A stretch of 64,000 bases of DNA from Flammeovirgaceae bacterium SG7u.111 (GTDB taxonomy: Bacteria; Bacteroidota; Bacteroidia; Cytophagales; Flammeovirgaceae): contig CP139021.1 in the NCBI GenBank assembly GCA_034044135.1, positions 3,611,635-3,675,634 of the forward strand, read 5' to 3'. This document shows, one piece after another, positions 13,877 through 64,000 of the stretch. The notes below the pieces were generated by a model that saw only the letters and a list, made by a program, of their open reading frames with translations, was not told the DNA's origin and made no database searches. Position 1 is the first letter of the stretch. Every line of letters starts with the position of its first letter. The translations under genes were made by a program, and so were the position numbers.

Positions 13877-14827
13877 TTAAAAATTCGCTTCTAAAATTCT
13901 TTTGAGCACCACCTGCGCAGCATACTCTCTATTTGCCGCTTCCTGAATAATCAACGAATTTGGACTATCTATCACTTCATCGCTCACGATCACATTCCGT
14001 CTCACTGGAAGGCAATGCATGAAACCTGCTTCGTTGGTCAAAGCCATTTTTGCTCCATCCACTATCCACGATTTATCTTCACATAAAACCTTGCCATACT
14101 CTTTGTAAGACGACCAGTTTTTGGCATAGATAAAATCAGCTTCTTCAAAAGCCTCGGCTTGGTTATGAGTCACTTTCGCATTTCCTGCAAATTCCTCTGC
14201 CAATTCATAGCCTTCAGGATGAGTAATTACAAAATCGACATCAGCAGCGTTCATCCACTCCGCAAAAGAATTGGGAACAGCTTGGGGTAATACCTTTGGG
14301 TGCGGCGCCCATGTCAACACTACTTTTGGTTTGGCTACTTTCTTGTGTTCCTCAATTGTCATCAAGTCGGCTAGCGACTGCAAGGGGTGGCGAGTTGCCG
14401 ACTCCAAGCTGATCAATGGAATACCACAATGCTGTTTGAATTGTTCAATAATGGTCTCGGCATAGTCTGCTTCCCTGTCTTTCAAGCCTGGGAAAGAACG
14501 GATTCCCATCACATCGAAATAAGCTCCCATTACTCTCGCTGCATCCTTCACATGCTCGGCTTTATTTCCATCCATCACCACTCCATCTTCAAACTCCAAT
14601 TGCCAACCCTCGCTACCAAAATTCATCACTATAGGCGACATCCCAAGGTTTTGAGCAGCTTTTTGTGTACTCAACCTTGTTCTCAAACTTGGGTTCAAAA
14701 AGATGATTCCCATCGTAAGACCTTCGCCCAATTTTTTATATCCAAAAGGATCTTTTTTCAAAGCAATCCCTTCTTTTACCAACCCATACAAATCATCTAC
14801 GTCGCTTAATCCTGTAAAATTTTTCAT
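13877..14827 (-). CDS. argF': N-acyl-ornithine carbamoyltransferase (acetyl- or succinylornithine type)
   Basis: It carbamoylates N-acylated ornithine, the variant arginine route of Bacteroidota and Xanthomonas, in place of ornithine carbamoyltransferase. The 316 residues carry NPSLRTRLSTQ (carbamoyl phosphate), the loop FEDGVVMDGNKAEHVKDAA, MGIRSFPG and the C-terminal HCLPVRRN. As I recall, the X. campestris acetylornithine enzyme has Glu and the B. fragilis succinylornithine enzyme has Pro at the specificity position; here Ala90 (codon 14558-14560) occupies it. That argues against the Glu-type acetyl enzyme, but the acyl group is not settled. Its start overlaps the argD stop (TAATG), so the two are coupled. 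Confidence 0.93.
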   Translation of the reverse strand: MKNFTGLSDVDDLYGLVKEGIALKKDPFGYKKLGEGLTMGIIFLNPSLRTRLSTQKAAQNLGMSPIVMNFGSEGWQLEFEDGVVMDGNKAEHVKDAARVMGAYFDVMGIRSFPGLKDREADYAETIIEQFKQHCGIPLISLESATRHPLQSLADLMTIEEHKKVAKPKVVLTWAPHPKVLPQAVPNSFAEWMNAADVDFVITHPEGYELAEEFAGNAKVTHNQAEAFEEADFIYAKNWSSYKEYGKVLCEDKSWIVDGAKMALTNEAGFMHCLPVRRNVIVSDEVIDSPNSLIIQEAANREYAAQVVLKRILEANF

Positions 14828-58777: not shown

Positions 58778-59141
58778 ATACGTATGTTTAAATGAAAAAT
58801 TAATAAGTGGTTTAATAACGCATAGCCCAAGGCAATGTGATCCAGCAAATTAGCCCATGTACACAATTTTAAAAAGTAGCAAGCATCAAAACAGAATACT
58901 ACAACCCATTCTTTTACAAGCTATTACACCAATACGCATCAAAAACAACCCTCCTCCCAAAAAAAGTCTATTGACTGTTACAATAATACAAGTACTTTAT
59001 CGGAGAACTTTTTAGAAAAAGAAACAAACCATCAGGTAAGATTTGTTAAGGAATCAACTATTTTAGAGGGACATAATCCTTCTCCATCCTCAAACCCTCT
59101 GCAATCTCCCCAATTCAAGTCATCCTGCACTTGATGCAGGA

Positions 59142-59196
59142 TCTCCCGCCTATTATTCCGCCTTACATTGATCCTCAAAAGGAAAGCTCTACAATG
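59142..59196 (+). repeat. Left 55-bp direct repeat bracketing the island
   Basis: Aligns without gaps to 62575-62629 with 47 of 55 positions identical by hand count; the last part, CTCAAAAGGAAAGCTCTA, is identical in both. The pair encloses the structured repeats and the DUF6119 gene. Confidence 0.75.
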
Positions 59197-59310
59197 CCTG
59201 CGGGTGTATCGAGGGGAGATGACGTTCGCTTATCGACCTTCCTTTCGCCGAACGTCAGGAAGCGCCTGAAACGACTCCGACGTATGTGCCGCTCCGAAAA
59301 AAGGGCTCAA
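59197..59310 (+). repeat. Structured repeat, truncated copy 1 (unit end only)
   Basis: Contains the end of the repeat unit: the inner hairpin GACGTTCG (59221-59228) / CGAACGTC (59249-59256), then CTGAAACGACTCCGACGTAT and CCGCTCCGAAAAAAGGGCTC. It lacks the about 95-base segment with the outer left arm that copies 2 and 3 carry. Confidence 0.75.
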
Positions 59311-59661
59311 CCGCTCGGCTCTGTCGAGTGGAAACTATTAATACAACCTCTGGCTACCTTGGGCGGGGATGCCCAATTCATAACCCTCATCATACCAAAG
59401 CTTGACAGGTGCGGCCGAGTAAAATAACACACTTGATTGAAAGAACCTAAGTTCCGCAATGCCAGCTGGTGTATCGGGGGGAGATACTGGGTCGTAGCCC
59501 GGTATGACTCGGTTTTTTCTTGGGATGACACTGGTTTGAGGTTGCCCGTCGGGGTCGTTTCAGACCGCCCCGACGTTCGCTTATCGACCTTTCTTTCGCC
59601 GAACGTCAGGAGGCGTCTGAAACGACTCCGACGTATGTGCCGCTCCGAAAAAAGGGCACAA
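59311..59661 (+). repeat. Structured repeat, full copy 2 (351 bp)
   Basis: The unit starts at the core CCGCTCGGCTCTGTCGAGTG and runs to the next core. It includes the hairpins TTGGGC/GCCCAA, CTGGG/CCCGG (59487-59491 / 59498-59502) and a large one at 59548-59632 with arms GTCGG, GTCGTTTCAGAC and inner GACGTTCG. It differs from the right-hand copy by scattered substitutions, several keeping base pairs as G-U. Confidence 0.8.
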
Positions 59662-59765
59662 CCGATCGGCTCTGTCGAGTGGAAACTATTAGTGCAGCCT
59701 CTGGCTACCTTGGGCGGGGATGCCCAATTCATAACCCTCATCATGCCAAAGCTTGACAGCTGCGG
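59662..59765 (+). repeat. Structured repeat, truncated copy (unit start only)
   Basis: Starts at the core (CCGATCGGCTCTGTCGAGTG, one substitution) and matches the unit through TTGACAGCTGCGG, then diverges toward the DUF6119 gene. Confidence 0.75.
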
Positions 59766-60047
59766 CTGGGGCTCAATAACAAGCAAGAGAATCGTACCAA
59801 GTTTGGAAACAGGGTAACGAAGAGCTAGAAACTTGGTACGGCTACACCGAGGGAATAATAGAAGCATGAAAAAGCGAGAGACCCTAAAGGCATAGTTCTC
59901 CATTCTTTTTAGCAACCCTAAAAAGAATGGGGAAAATTGTTTTTTGTTTGTAACGTGCAATTAATTTCTGCATAGTGTTAATATCTACAAAGTAGTTTTG
60001 AAATGATGTTATTGGTGGGTAGATTGTAAGTGGCAGATATATAAATT

Positions 60048-61835
60048 ATGCTCAAACAGGTAGAAGATAATAATATGATCCAATCAAGCCATCACGATAT
60101 AAAAGTCTATCAAATAAATACGGGCTTTTACGAATTCGAAAACTTATCTAACACTCAAGAAATTGTTGAGCATATTATTAAGGATCATAAAAAGAGGTTT
60201 GAGACTCCATATGGACTTGAAGACCAGCGTTCAAGTTTAGAAATTGAACCAATCAATTATTTACTATATGTTTTCAATGAAATTGATAAGGAATCCATCT
60301 GGAAGAGTTTTCTTCCAAAAGAAATTACTGAACAACATGATTTTAGTATACAGAGCACTTCCTTCGCCCTTTTTATTCTTATTGAATCTGAGATTTTTGT
60401 TCTAATTGGTGGTAAGGGAATTTCTGTGATCAAGAAATTTATAAACCACTCCTTTGGGCTTGACTTGTATGAAAAAATTTCAGATCCTGATAATGATATT
60501 GTACATTCTCAAATGTCACGAGGAGTTACTGGTAATTTAACCTCAGAACAGAAGACCTATAGGAATGAACAAAAACTTATCGATTCATTATCAATTGGAA
60601 GAGTTCCTAACAAATTCTATTTATTACTCAGGCAGGATTTAAAAGACTCAATATTTGATTTTATTGATTTTGATGATGAGAATGTCTATTTAGAAATTGG
60701 CTCTTCATTTTGCCTTAAATGGAAGCTGTCATTCGAACAGACACATGAATTAATATTGAAATTAGTTGAAATACAGAAAAATGGAACGGGCAAACCCTTA
60801 AGTAGATTTGAACGCATAAGGGATTCCAAATTTTGCAAAGATAGCTTAGAAATGGCCCTTTATGATCATTTGCGGAATGATATGGTAAGAATGAATACAC
60901 TTGGTTCTACCACTGTAAACAACTTGGATTTCGACTTTGTTCATCCGCAAAAGTTGAATCTATTTTATGAATGTGATATTTATTCGGCATATAAGAAAGG
61001 ATCTAAAACTCCATTTTTTGAAACACGAGATCGCACAAGATTATATTATGAAACCCTGAAATATCTCTATGAAACTGTAGATCAGCATGACGCTTGGAGT
61101 TTTATAAAACATCTTTCAGGGGTTAGAATCAGGGGTTTTGTAGGTGAAGAGAAAAAAACTGAGGCAATGTTTATTAACCACTTAACCTGTGAGGTTCCTG
61201 TAAATGGTAGCCCTTACTTTCTTATTGACAATCTCTGGTACAAGGTAAGAGGGGATTTCATAGATACTATTAACGAACAATGCAGTTCAATGCTTCAATC
61301 AAATGAGTTGAGCCCTAACCCACTGACTAAAATCTGGTTTAGGGATATAGATGAGGGAATGTACAATTTAGAATATCTTGAAGAAGACAATTTTATAGTT
61401 CTCGATAAAATGCTAGGGCAAAATATAGAGTTGTGTGATTTGCTATATGAAACCAATGAAAATATTTACTTAATCCACGTAAAGGAGGGTTTTGATGCTA
61501 AAATCAGAGATGTGACTAACCAAGTTTCGATTTCTGCAAATAGATTATGGAATGATCTAAAATCTGATTTTCATTTCGTAAATACTGTCTATAGGCGTTA
61601 TTCGGAAAGTACCAATTTTGAGTATAATAGCATTTCCGTAGAAGATTTTCGACTAAAATTTAAAAAGGACATAATCTATGTTATTGCCTTTTGTCACAAC
61701 AGGATTAATAAAAAAGTATCTGAGGACATTCAGGAGTTTAAGTCGAACATTGCAAAATTTTCGATAATTCAAAGCATTAGGGATATGCAAGGCAATAACT
61801 ACCCACTTAAAGTGATAGAAATAAAAAGAGAATAA
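60048..61835 (+). CDS. DUF6119/TIGR04141 family sporadically distributed protein
   Basis: This 595-residue protein resembles the family known as 'sporadically distributed protein, TIGR04141' (DUF6119). An N-terminal part with SFALFILIESEIFVLIGGKG and FINHSFGLDLYEKI matches the self-contained sensor-like region, and the C-terminal part with FIVLDKMLGQNIELCDLLYE, IYLIHVKEGFDAKIRDVTNQ and VSISANRLW matches the family's CDLL...HVK motif. No signal, membrane helix or nuclease motif is evident. It is visibly more AT-rich than its surroundings and sits alone between structured repeats, suggesting transfer. A link to defence islands is remembered for relatives, not shown here. M10 is an alternative start. 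Confidence 0.78.
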   Translation: MLKQVEDNNMIQSSHHDIKVYQINTGFYEFENLSNTQEIVEHIIKDHKKRFETPYGLEDQRSSLEIEPINYLLYVFNEIDKESIWKSFLPKEITEQHDFSIQSTSFALFILIESEIFVLIGGKGISVIKKFINHSFGLDLYEKISDPDNDIVHSQMSRGVTGNLTSEQKTYRNEQKLIDSLSIGRVPNKFYLLLRQDLKDSIFDFIDFDDENVYLEIGSSFCLKWKLSFEQTHELILKLVEIQKNGTGKPLSRFERIRDSKFCKDSLEMALYDHLRNDMVRMNTLGSTTVNNLDFDFVHPQKLNLFYECDIYSAYKKGSKTPFFETRDRTRLYYETLKYLYETVDQHDAWSFIKHLSGVRIRGFVGEEKKTEAMFINHLTCEVPVNGSPYFLIDNLWYKVRGDFIDTINEQCSSMLQSNELSPNPLTKIWFRDIDEGMYNLEYLEEDNFIVLDKMLGQNIELCDLLYETNENIYLIHVKEGFDAKIRDVTNQVSISANRLWNDLKSDFHFVNTVYRRYSESTNFEYNSISVEDFRLKFKKDIIYVIAFCHNRINKKVSEDIQEFKSNIAKFSIIQSIRDMQGNNYPLKVIEIKRE

Positions 61836-61865
61836 CATAATAATTTAATTGTGTAAATATGAATA

Positions 61866-62021
61866 AAAGACATTATATATTATACTATTTGGATTGCAGA
61901 GAATCTGGTTCAACCTGCTCATAGTTTATACACAAAGGACAAAGGGACTCATCATATAGATTTCCAAGAACATCCCTTTTCAGATGACAATATCTTATTT
62001 GTAGCCAATAGGCAAGTCTAA
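61866..62021 (+). pseudogene. Possible remnant of a protein C-terminus
   Basis: In one frame there is no stop from the TGA at about 61859 to the TAA at 62019-62021. It reads WIAENLVQPAHSLYTKDKG and then HHIDFQEHPFSDDNILFVAN, which looks protein-like, but it has no ATG/GTG/TTG start. It could be the decayed end of a second gene of the island. No family is recognised. Confidence 0.3.
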
Positions 62022-62195
62022 GCTTTTGATCTAAATGGAAGCTACGAAGGCTTCCTTATTCTGTTTACAAACTCCTTCTTTTTCTCTGATAATAAGCTTC
62101 CATTTATTCTTCCAAACCATGGGATCTCAACTTTCAAATAGCAAATCCTTTGTTGCCTCTATCAGATAAGAAGAAAGCAACGTTCGCCTCCCATG

Positions 62196-62548
62196 CCGCT
62201 CGGCTCTGTCGAGTGGAAACTATTAGTGTAGCCTCTGGCTACCTTGGGCGGGGATGCCCAATTCATAACCCTCATCATGCCAAAGCTTGACAGCTGCGGC
62301 CGAGTAAAACAACACGCTTGATTGAAAGAACCTAAGTTCCGCAATGTCAGTTGGTGTATCGGGGGGAGATACCGGGTCGTAGCCCGGCATGACTCGGTTT
62401 TTTCTTGGGATGATACTGGTTTGGGGTTGCCCCGTCGGGGTCGTTTTAGACCGCCCCCGACGTTCGCTTATCGACCTTTCTTTCGCCGAACGTCAGGAGG
62501 CGTCTGAAACGACTCCGACGTATGTGCCGCTCCGAAAAAAGGGCTCAA
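62196..62548 (+). repeat. Structured repeat, full copy 3 (353 bp), right side
   Basis: The same unit as at 59311-59661, from core to core. Its hairpins are CCGGG/CCCGG (62372-62376 / 62383-62387) and the large one at 62434-62519 with arm GTCGTTTTAGAC, where copy 2 has a C instead of the fourth T; the pair is kept as U-G. Confidence 0.8.
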
Positions 62549-62573
62549 CCGCTCGGCTCTGTCGAGTGGAAAC
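62549..62573 (+). repeat. Structured repeat, terminal core only
   Basis: A fourth occurrence of the 25-base core (CCGCTCGGCTCTGTCGAGTG plus GAAAC), joined directly to the right 55-bp direct repeat. Confidence 0.75.
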
Positions 62574-62574
62574 C

Positions 62575-62629
62575 TCTCCCTCCTACTATTCAATCTCACA
62601 TTGCTCCTCAAAAGGAAAGCTCTATAATG
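62575..62629 (+). repeat. Right 55-bp direct repeat bracketing the island
   Basis: Gapless match to 59142-59196 (47 of 55). It begins two bases after the last repeat core, so the junction between repeat and direct repeat is sharp on this side. Confidence 0.75.
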
Positions 62630-62874
62630 ACTTCTGTCCTATGCATAAGGCTTGCAGTGTCCTTTTTCTTCTTTCATTAGCGACACAATTTGTGTCAACT
62701 TTTTTCGGGATGCCTTAGAAGCTATTTGGAAATATATCTTCAAAATTCTTATGTGCTTATTTCCTCATCAGATCTAAAACTTACAAACCCAAAACAACTA
62801 CATATTACTGCCGGACGACTACTTTTTGGTGCCAAACAAGGACTTTTTAATGCCGGAGAAAGAGATATTTCTTC

Positions 62875-62961
62875 TGAAATATGAAAAATCAAAGACGATA
62901 TATGAAATATTTGTGCCGATGAACGTCTTATTTTTCCCGAAATATGAAAAATCAAAGCCGT
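62875..62961 (+). repeat. Short imperfect repeat
   Basis: GAAATATGAAAAATCAAAG occurs twice (from about 62877 and 62939), each followed by a CG-containing word, and GTGCCG/TGCCGG words recur nearby. It looks like degenerate low-complexity repeat rather than a gene, although frames are open on both strands. Confidence 0.45.
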
Positions 62962-63316
62962 TATTAGACTTACGAAAGACGATATACTCAATATTTTTTC
63001 CTTTTTGCTCCTTTTTATTGCCTTTTTTCTTCTTTTCTGAGCCGTATGAAGGGTTATTTGCCCTTGCGGGTACATTTTTGGGTTCTTGGCAAGGGTAAAT
63101 TCTAAATTTTGTGAATTTTATTAAAATGGCACGTGGGTATTATGGGGTATTTAGGCAGTTAAATCCTTTGCCCAAATGAAATCAGTAGTTCAACAGAGTA
63201 AATCTGATGAACCGATTTATAGTTTACCTGTTCGGTTTTAGCTTAAACTATTCTTGTCATTGATTCTTTCTCCACTTAATGTATCATAATAAGCCTTCCC
63301 TCACTATCTCTCCTTC

Positions 63317-64000
63317 TCAATTGATAAAAGCGATCTTGGCTACGTGTGTTTCTTGCCCGTCTTCAGAAGCACTGTAGACCAGATAGATGCCTGTTTGCGC
63401 ACGTTGGCCGTTGTAGTTTGCCCCGTTCCAGGTAGCAGTGCCTCCCGCAGCTTGTGTTTGCCAAATAAGCTTGCCCGCAATATCGGTGATCTTGACCGTA
63501 GCGTTGTAGCTCAAGCCCGAAATACTAATCAAGCCCCCAAAACTTGGCAGCACAGGATTGGGGAATACCTTTACATTGCTATGCTCGTAGGTAGCCGAAG
63601 TAGCCGTTCCTCGGTATGAGATAATCCCCTTATCAGTAGCGAAAAAGACCTCTCCTGTTAAGGGATTTGTTTCAATATCTATGATGGTATTGGAGAGCAG
63701 CGGGCTGTTGTCTTCGTCGAAAAAGGAAATGAGCTCCGAGCCGTCGTCACTGAAGAGCCATGCACCGTTGAGCGTGCCTATCCACTTGCGGTTGCCACCG
63801 TCTACTTCCATAGCGGTTACCTTTTCCCCTTCCAGCAGCCTCCTGCCCTCGTAGCGGGGAATGGTCGCATCGCCCGAAGAGGAATCGAACACTCCGCCGG
63901 GGTTAAAGAACTCCGCAACGCCATCATCGGTCCCCACCCAGATGCTTCCGTTGATATCTTTGGCAAAGGCATTCACATTCCCATTGGGCAAGTTCCCAAA
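63317..64000 (-). CDS. porZ: PorZ-like T9SS protein, C-terminal part (runs off right edge)
   Basis: PorZ is an outer-surface component of the type IX secretion attachment complex, made of two beta-propellers and a T9SS C-terminal domain. The visible 227 residues end the second propeller (DINGSIWVGTDDGVAEFFNP, GNRKWIGTLNGAWLFSDDG, FFATDKGIISYRG) and continue into VKVFPNPVLPSFGGLISISG, VKITDIAGKLIWQTQAAGG and GIYLVYSASEDGQETHVAKI, which is the PorZ-type tail. The frame is open to the right edge, so the start lies outside. Other propeller proteins with sorting domains are possible but the tail is closest to PorZ. Confidence 0.82.
   Translation of the reverse strand, partial: FGNLPNGNVNAFAKDINGSIWVGTDDGVAEFFNPGGVFDSSSGDATIPRYEGRRLLEGEKVTAMEVDGGNRKWIGTLNGAWLFSDDGSELISFFDEDNSPLLSNTIIDIETNPLTGEVFFATDKGIISYRGTATSATYEHSNVKVFPNPVLPSFGGLISISGLSYNATVKITDIAGKLIWQTQAAGGTATWNGANYNGQRAQTGIYLVYSASEDGQETHVAKIAFIN

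Follow-up and report, generated by a model that had tools for sequence, protein, structure and literature searches.

Members of the DUF6119 (PF19614)/TIGR04141 family, described as a "sporadically distributed protein," share a C-terminal signature and a patchy occurrence and often lie beside defence genes, while literature searches found no published function for DUF6119/TIGR04141. Among described defence systems, Shedu is a close parallel, being a single-gene system with a PD-(D/E)XK-type domain whose one nuclease, SduA, degrades phage genomes (excerpt of PMC12948488). A second parallel is found in the defence cassettes of Vibrio and mobile integrons, each a lone defence-type gene whose core ends are complementary and which has an attC-like hairpin; in V. 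cholerae about 10% of the cassettes are anti-phage, and defence systems have been streamlined to cassette size (Darracq et al., 2025 and others, as given in an excerpt of PMC12409362). Clusters of attC sites that lack an integrase are known as CALINs, and group II introns occur in both integrons and CALINs (excerpt of PMC7923331). In Bacteroidetes, the excerpted part of the IntegronFinder 2.0 paper states that earlier only integrases without cassettes had been found, names one complete integron, in Salinibacter, and reports integrons as rare in Cytophagales (PMC9024848), while excerpts of two other papers list Bacteroidota among integron-bearing phyla (PMC8618304, PMC9668308). Literature searches on Marivirga or Fulvivirga cassettes returned no paper on them among the matches listed.

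Here we consider a DUF6119/TIGR04141 gene in the window, a term that we use for the whole 64,000-nucleotide stretch of DNA analysed. With slightly better than even confidence, we take its product to be a self-contained, one-protein defence nuclease (predicted), and the gene to have travelled as an integron-type cassette before being left stranded in the chromosome. The gene was first listed at 60048..61835 on the plus strand, with an ATG start and 595 aa. Because the ATG matching 60048 runs to an in-frame stop in both near relatives, Marivirga aurantiaca (locus L003; ATG CTC AAT AGA TAG) and Fulvivirga sediminis (locus L004; ATG CTC AAT AGG TAG), the true start is probably 60075, giving a product of 586 aa. 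Like other family members, the window protein has the C-terminal signature (IELCDLL...LIHVK, residues 460-479), and it matches both curated profiles above their cut-offs: PF19614 with 104.8 bits (E 6.1e-30, cut-off 27, Pfam profile search) and TIGR04141 with 81 bits (E 6.6e-23, cut-off 35). The earlier note, which had placed the gene in this family from its CDLL...HVK motif, was therefore right on this point. Pairwise dN/dS against the Marivirga and Fulvivirga genes is 0.059 and 0.047, and approximately 0.051 on the window branch alone; judged by these low pairwise ratios, the ORF is not a chance product, and the copy is still under strong purifying selection. PADLOC-DB 2.0.0 profiles gave no family for the window protein at E<=1, and no convincing solved-structure relative was found, the best match (E 0.046) being a stretch of a ribosomal protein.

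The patchy distribution that had been proposed for the family is borne out by the counts. The window genome (7.7 Mb) has one copy; among 97 relatives, the family is present in one, which is the window's own genome, and none of 17 other genomes of the same taxonomic family has a DUF6119 gene. Across the phylum, DUF6119 was found in 11 of 395 genomes, 10 of them over the cut-off, and a protein search of the order found it in 8 of 390 (the window's own genome, two at 87-89% and five at 32-49%). The two near relatives are those of M. aurantiaca (89% protein identity) and F. sediminis (87%). Searches of plasmids and phages found no DUF6119 relatives, and neither did searches of viral contigs that started from P0001 and from two distant members. 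An alignment query returned one partial relative, and pattern scans returned further canonical members. Compared with the full-length DUF6119 members of viral contigs, the window protein is 18-20% identical (alignment A3) and has the form of a lone cassette.

The gene had also been put forward as a defence candidate, a role for which the genes next to other members of the family give indirect support. A defence-type neighbour was recognised from sequence at 9 of the 15 more distant loci (L033-L042 and L095-L099), and thus for most of the distant relatives examined, a count that has no matched control and that treats as misses five loci whose neighbours were not scanned (L040, L042, L097, L098, L099); at the ten scanned loci (L033-L039, L041, L095, L096) the proteins were picked by eye. 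Internal stops interrupt the L040 gene, and L042 falls short of the family cut-off. The neighbours are a retron II-A type NDT (L033), SEFIR with LRR (L034), a TIR/ThsB-like protein (L035), an Alw26I-type restriction enzyme (L036), two AbiTii (L038), putAbiC with a DrmC-like protein (L039), HsdS (L041), Abi_alpha with a NERD/UvrD-like protein (L095) and a complete type I R-M operon with FRG (L096), while a KAP NTPase at L037 was not scored as defence. A bare PADLOC match is weak evidence, because control stretches also yield single matches: 48 other proteins of the window genome (of 56 listed, the eight omitted being mostly short) matched four PADLOC families, one member each, at E<=1e-6. At L039 (5928-9793), the DUF6119 gene, a gene for a membrane protein with a putAbiC domain and one for a DrmC-like protein lie head to tail and almost gapless, and look like a three-gene defence operon. 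At L096 (2992-13763), hsdR, hsdM, hsdS, DUF6119, a PDDEXK_5-like protein, FRG and further genes run in one direction, with DUF6119 as an apparent accessory of the type I R-M system.

Loci of this last kind suggest that the family could be an accessory or escape module of R-M, one that cooperates with type I systems or acts on them (cutting DNA with a foreign methylation pattern, for instance), so that lone copies would be orphans using a host system elsewhere. At L096, where the type I operon is complete, the gene and the end of hsdS overlap; the L041 fragment lies just upstream of an hsdS, and L036 is beside the Alw26I-type enzyme. However, the partners at the other defence-type loci are unrelated (TIR, AbiTii, AbiC, retron, Abi_alpha, SEFIR), and the Marivirga and Fulvivirga copies moved without an R-M gene; we consider this reading rather unlikely.

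The window gene itself stands alone, as the earlier note had said: of 38 proteins in the region (window 42000-64000 and the next 18 kb), one matched a PADLOC family at E<=1e-6 (mad2). It is flanked by dispersed repeats, with two units on the left (59142..59766, plus strand) and a right block with the same repeats in direct orientation (62196..62653, plus strand), both outside the cassette and 94-97% identical over long stretches. RecA-type deletion of the gene between these direct repeats would be possible. The suggestion that the activity might depend on the repeats found no support, and the repeats were rejected as part of the unit: one repeat unit has 20 matches genome-wide, and the window flanks have no counterpart at L003 or L004 by blastn at E<=1e-5, similarity there being weak only (best E 0.096). 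Upstream of the gene, at 59900-59930, a perfect 13-bp hairpin (CCATTCTTTTTAG/CTAAAAAGAATGG) is followed by a T-rich stretch and resembles a terminator. Rfam found nothing at E<=1 in window 58800-63400. The search for an empty site yielded none, as the best homologue of the neighbouring gene (in G017, 66%) has no syntenic neighbours within 18 kb.

When the whole window was compared by blastn with 22 kb around each near copy, the gene was the only common sequence (window 60038-61839 against L003 9978-11780; window 60046-61835 against L004 9988-11773). Among the three near copies dS is 0.64-1.47, at which neutral flanks would have diverged as well, and the argument for a sharp border is therefore drawn from the leader. 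Between L003 and L004, the 34 nt from TTATGC are identical at 30 positions, compared with 20 of the preceding 50 nt; the window leader matches those of the near relatives at 15 of 34 positions, ungapped. On this sequence evidence, the gene was transferred singly between genomes. The lone state of the window gene, a point whose explanation the earlier note had missed, looks like the consequence of its having once been an integron-type cassette.

The ends of the shared sequence bear on this directly. In the window, a 5' core relic, (A)TTATGCTC, lies where the shared sequence starts (60046..60053, plus strand), with GTTATGCTC in the Marivirga and Fulvivirga copies, and a 3' core relic, GAGAATAAC, which includes the stop codon, lies approximately where it ends (61828..61836, plus strand), with GAGCATAAC in Marivirga and GAGCATAAT in Fulvivirga. 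To score such ends, we asked how long a 5' word starting with GTT can be and still match the reverse-complemented 3' region exactly. Five class 1 cassettes from two annotated plasmids, used as controls, all gave matches of 8-13 nt. In the background, 293 of 294 ORFs gave 6 nt or less, the exception being a 263-aa Marivirga gene discussed below, and when the 5' end of one cassette was paired with the 3' end of another, 9 nt was reached in 0 of 110 pairings. The L003 unit runs from G/TTATGCTC to GAGCATAAC, its last core enclosing the stop codon, and the DUF6119 gene there has complementary GTT..AAC cores (GTTATGCTC) of 9 nt. The next Marivirga gene (L003 ORF263, 263 aa) gave 10 nt, the Fulvivirga DnaJ gene (L004) 14 nt, adjacent PIN_8 and DUF7677 genes at another Fulvivirga place (L113) 10 and 10 nt, and a Marivirga gene (L112 c) 10 nt, so that 6 of 18 non-control genes pass at 9 nt or more. 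Another 11 fail (L003 SRPBCC, L003 138-aa, L003 Arr, the window gene, L112 a, L112 b and L095-L099). The L004 DUF6119 gene gives 0 under the strict test and 8 nt (TTATGCTC) under a looser one that waives the last base, located where a group II intron-like insert joins. Each end of the window copy is one base off the Marivirga end; since only TTATG (5 nt) matches and there is no hairpin, this copy is filed as a relic and not as a cassette. The second Marivirga cassette gene occurs in one of 390 genomes, its own. The Marivirga stretch with these cassettes also holds an Arr-type rifampin ADP-ribosyltransferase gene (L003:15677-16120; PF12120, 164 bits). Just 5' of two cassette-like starts there, at L003:9885-9957 and 14729-14796, lie similar leaders (alignment score 44, shuffles <=26), a candidate attI-like or promoter element as far as their sequences go.

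A 117-nt attC-like hairpin is anchored at the stop codon of the Marivirga DUF6119 gene (L003:11771-11887), with six core pairs and 14 pairs in the region of the second box. Its score of 20 was reached by 0 of 300 shuffles and compares with 5-20 for known attCs scored likewise; of 247 background ORFs, one reached at least 16 and three at least 10. The gene-end test found no attC-like hairpin at the DUF6119 genes of the window, L004, L095, L097, L098 or L099. In L097 (genome G628), which holds a relative at 33%, the DUF6119 start is preceded, at a distance of some 15-20 nt, by the end of an attC-like site, and this 126-bp site recurs at unrelated places in Marivirga (92%) and Fulvivirga (91%), the Fulvivirga copy lying directly 3' of a PIN_8 gene with the ends GTTAGGCACA and TGTGCCTAAC. 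More attC-like sites and cassette-like genes, one of them PIN_8, were seen at L112 (Marivirga) and L113 (Fulvivirga). Behind the DUF6119 genes of L004 and L097 lie group II intron-like inserts that are related to each other (66-75% identity, two blocks), and in both cases AAACCGTTGGCA stands between the insert and the next ORF. Rfam gave no gathering matches in L003/L004, and group-II-D1D4-3 at L004:12098-12305 (minus strand) reached 29.9 bits, below the Rfam cut-off of 32.

A canonical integron was rejected as the present setting. The TIGR02249 integron integrase profile had no match over cut-off in G000 (the window genome), G480 or G481. A class 1 attC covariance model (R1), which recovered four of its five source sites at E<1e-6 and GES-1 partly (E 0.078), had no match in the window, L003 or L004; over the three genomes as a whole it gave a single match, at E=10. 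A free hairpin scan did no better than shuffled sequence (4 vs 7, 8 vs 17, 9 vs 16), and only gene-end-anchored tests therefore carry weight. Because the integrase, class 1 attC and free-scan tests were all negative, we describe the L003 unit as an integron-type cassette whose setting is degenerate or integrase-less, and regard the window copy as the relic of such a cassette. Compared with the defence cassettes of Vibrio and mobile integrons, the present case has a Cytophagales host, no integrase found, a gene of ~1.8 kb and sites invisible to the class 1 attC model, and the window copy has lost its site. Like CALINs, the Marivirga and Fulvivirga loci combine cassette-like genes and attC-like sites with the lack of an integrase, and one cassette end adjoins a group II intron-like insert; they differ from CALINs in that their arrays are short and degenerate.

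The same negative results (no integron integrase, no class 1-type attC, no end signature in L095-L099), together with a dS of 0.6-1.5 at which neutral flanks would be far diverged as well, could also fit transfer of the single gene by ordinary recombination or another mobile element, with the complementary ends as leftovers and integrons irrelevant. We give this a low probability: a signature of 9-14 nt specific to a gene's own two ends is present in six ORFs of two genomes, and the 126-bp attC-like site (91-92%) stands at unrelated places in three genomes, once after PIN_8 with its GTTAGGCACA/TGTGCCTAAC pair.

As to what such a cassette would encode, alignments and structure models point to a putative PD-(D/E)XK-like domain at residues 427-595 (61326..61832, plus strand), which carries the pattern E..D..HxK..Q. 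Its elements, all on the plus strand, are E436 (61353..61355; alignment A1 and model), the motif I candidate, which lies in the domain's first helix; D464 (61437..61439), the motif II candidate; H477-V478-K479 (61476..61484) at the motif III position, with His for Asp/Glu; and Q492 (61521..61523), the motif IV candidate, the last three from alignments A1 and A3. D453, E461, C463, D464, H477, K479 and Q492 are invariant in A1 (10 rows) and A3 (9 rows), which were built with different distant members and have three sequences in common, and E436 is invariant in A1. A model of residues 300-595 from nine sequences has a mean pLDDT of 70.3; in it, D464 opens one strand, HVK lies in the next and Q492 in the following helix. 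The best VIA matches to this model are FokI (Z 6.5; 125 residues, 3.6 A), BamHI (6.3) and EndoMS (6.3), followed by HamA (6.2), CdiA-CT (6.1), SduA (5.4) and McrC (5.2); all rows at Z of at least 5 are what we take to be PD-(D/E)XK-type folds, and the first clearly different fold is CD38 (Z 4.7). Folds missing from the VIA table carry no evidential weight. The full-length model, in which residues 1-264 have pLDDT <50, gives a similar list with FokI on top. All VIA Z values are below 8 for both models (best 6.5), and Foldseek gave no match at E<=1e-3 for either the full-length or the domain model. The C-terminal domain is predicted to fold like a PD-(D/E)XK nuclease. The earlier note would have abandoned its proposal for want of an HMM match or in the face of an ordinary housekeeping fold; the family profiles match, and the modelled domain resembles PD-(D/E)XK nucleases. 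The second core strand has His at H477 in all rows of both alignments where (D/E)-x-K would stand, and because His replaces the motif acid we term the protein nuclease-like and not a canonical PD-(D/E)XK member.

In the reading that we favour, a defence nuclease spread as a cassette, this C-terminal metal-dependent PD-(D/E)XK-like nuclease (E436, D464, H477, K479, Q492) would cut invading DNA, and the N-terminal ~300 residues might, at a guess, sense the target or restrain the nuclease until infection, roughly as in SduA. Having no methyltransferase partner, the protein could not separate self from non-self in type II style, and would have to respond to a DNA end, to foreign modification or to some signal of infection. 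A partner-free, self-regulated defence of one protein would suit the cassette form, and the stranded copy would presumably still be expressed. The likeness to Shedu lies in the single gene and in the predicted fold; in contrast to Shedu, the window protein has no DUF4263 match (Pfam, E<=1), has HxK and not ExK, and has an unrelated N-terminal part. The presence of CdiA-CT toxins among the nearest folds (Z 6.1) and of many Abi-type neighbour genes would equally fit an abortive-infection RNase or tRNase, whose PD-(D/E)XK-like core cuts host RNA so that the cell dies or stops growth. Against this, no antitoxin gene travels along, and most of the VIA fold matches are DNA-cutting enzymes; we regard it as improbable. 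That the His-for-acid change, found in every row of A1 (10) and A3 (9), abolishes cutting and leaves a domain that just binds nucleic acid or a partner is likewise poorly favoured, as D464, K479 and Q492 are invariant too and would be unneeded in a dead domain.

With these comparisons, a patchy and so far uncharacterised family becomes the subject of a claim that can be tested on named residues, in which a putative HxK nuclease-like site, a defence role and the reason for lone copies are tied together. If the cassette reading is true, the Vibrio-type stock of integron defence genes would reach Cytophagales, through sites unseen by the class 1 attC model. A bolder view, which we offer tentatively and regard as doubtful, is that Cytophagales hold an overlooked integron-like cassette economy with its own attC-type sites and no canonical integrase, trading single-gene defence nucleases; DUF6119 would be the first of these to be recognised, a self-regulated HxK nuclease that gives protection by itself when carried as a cassette, or else attaches as an additional module to type I R-M and other systems.

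The window genome also encodes two tyrosine recombinases, L018:1219-2076 (C1, ~6.632 Mb) and L017 (~2.606 Mb), that match the integrase profile in two pieces, with 133+104 bits and 134+91 bits, respectively, and with profile positions ~180-235 absent.
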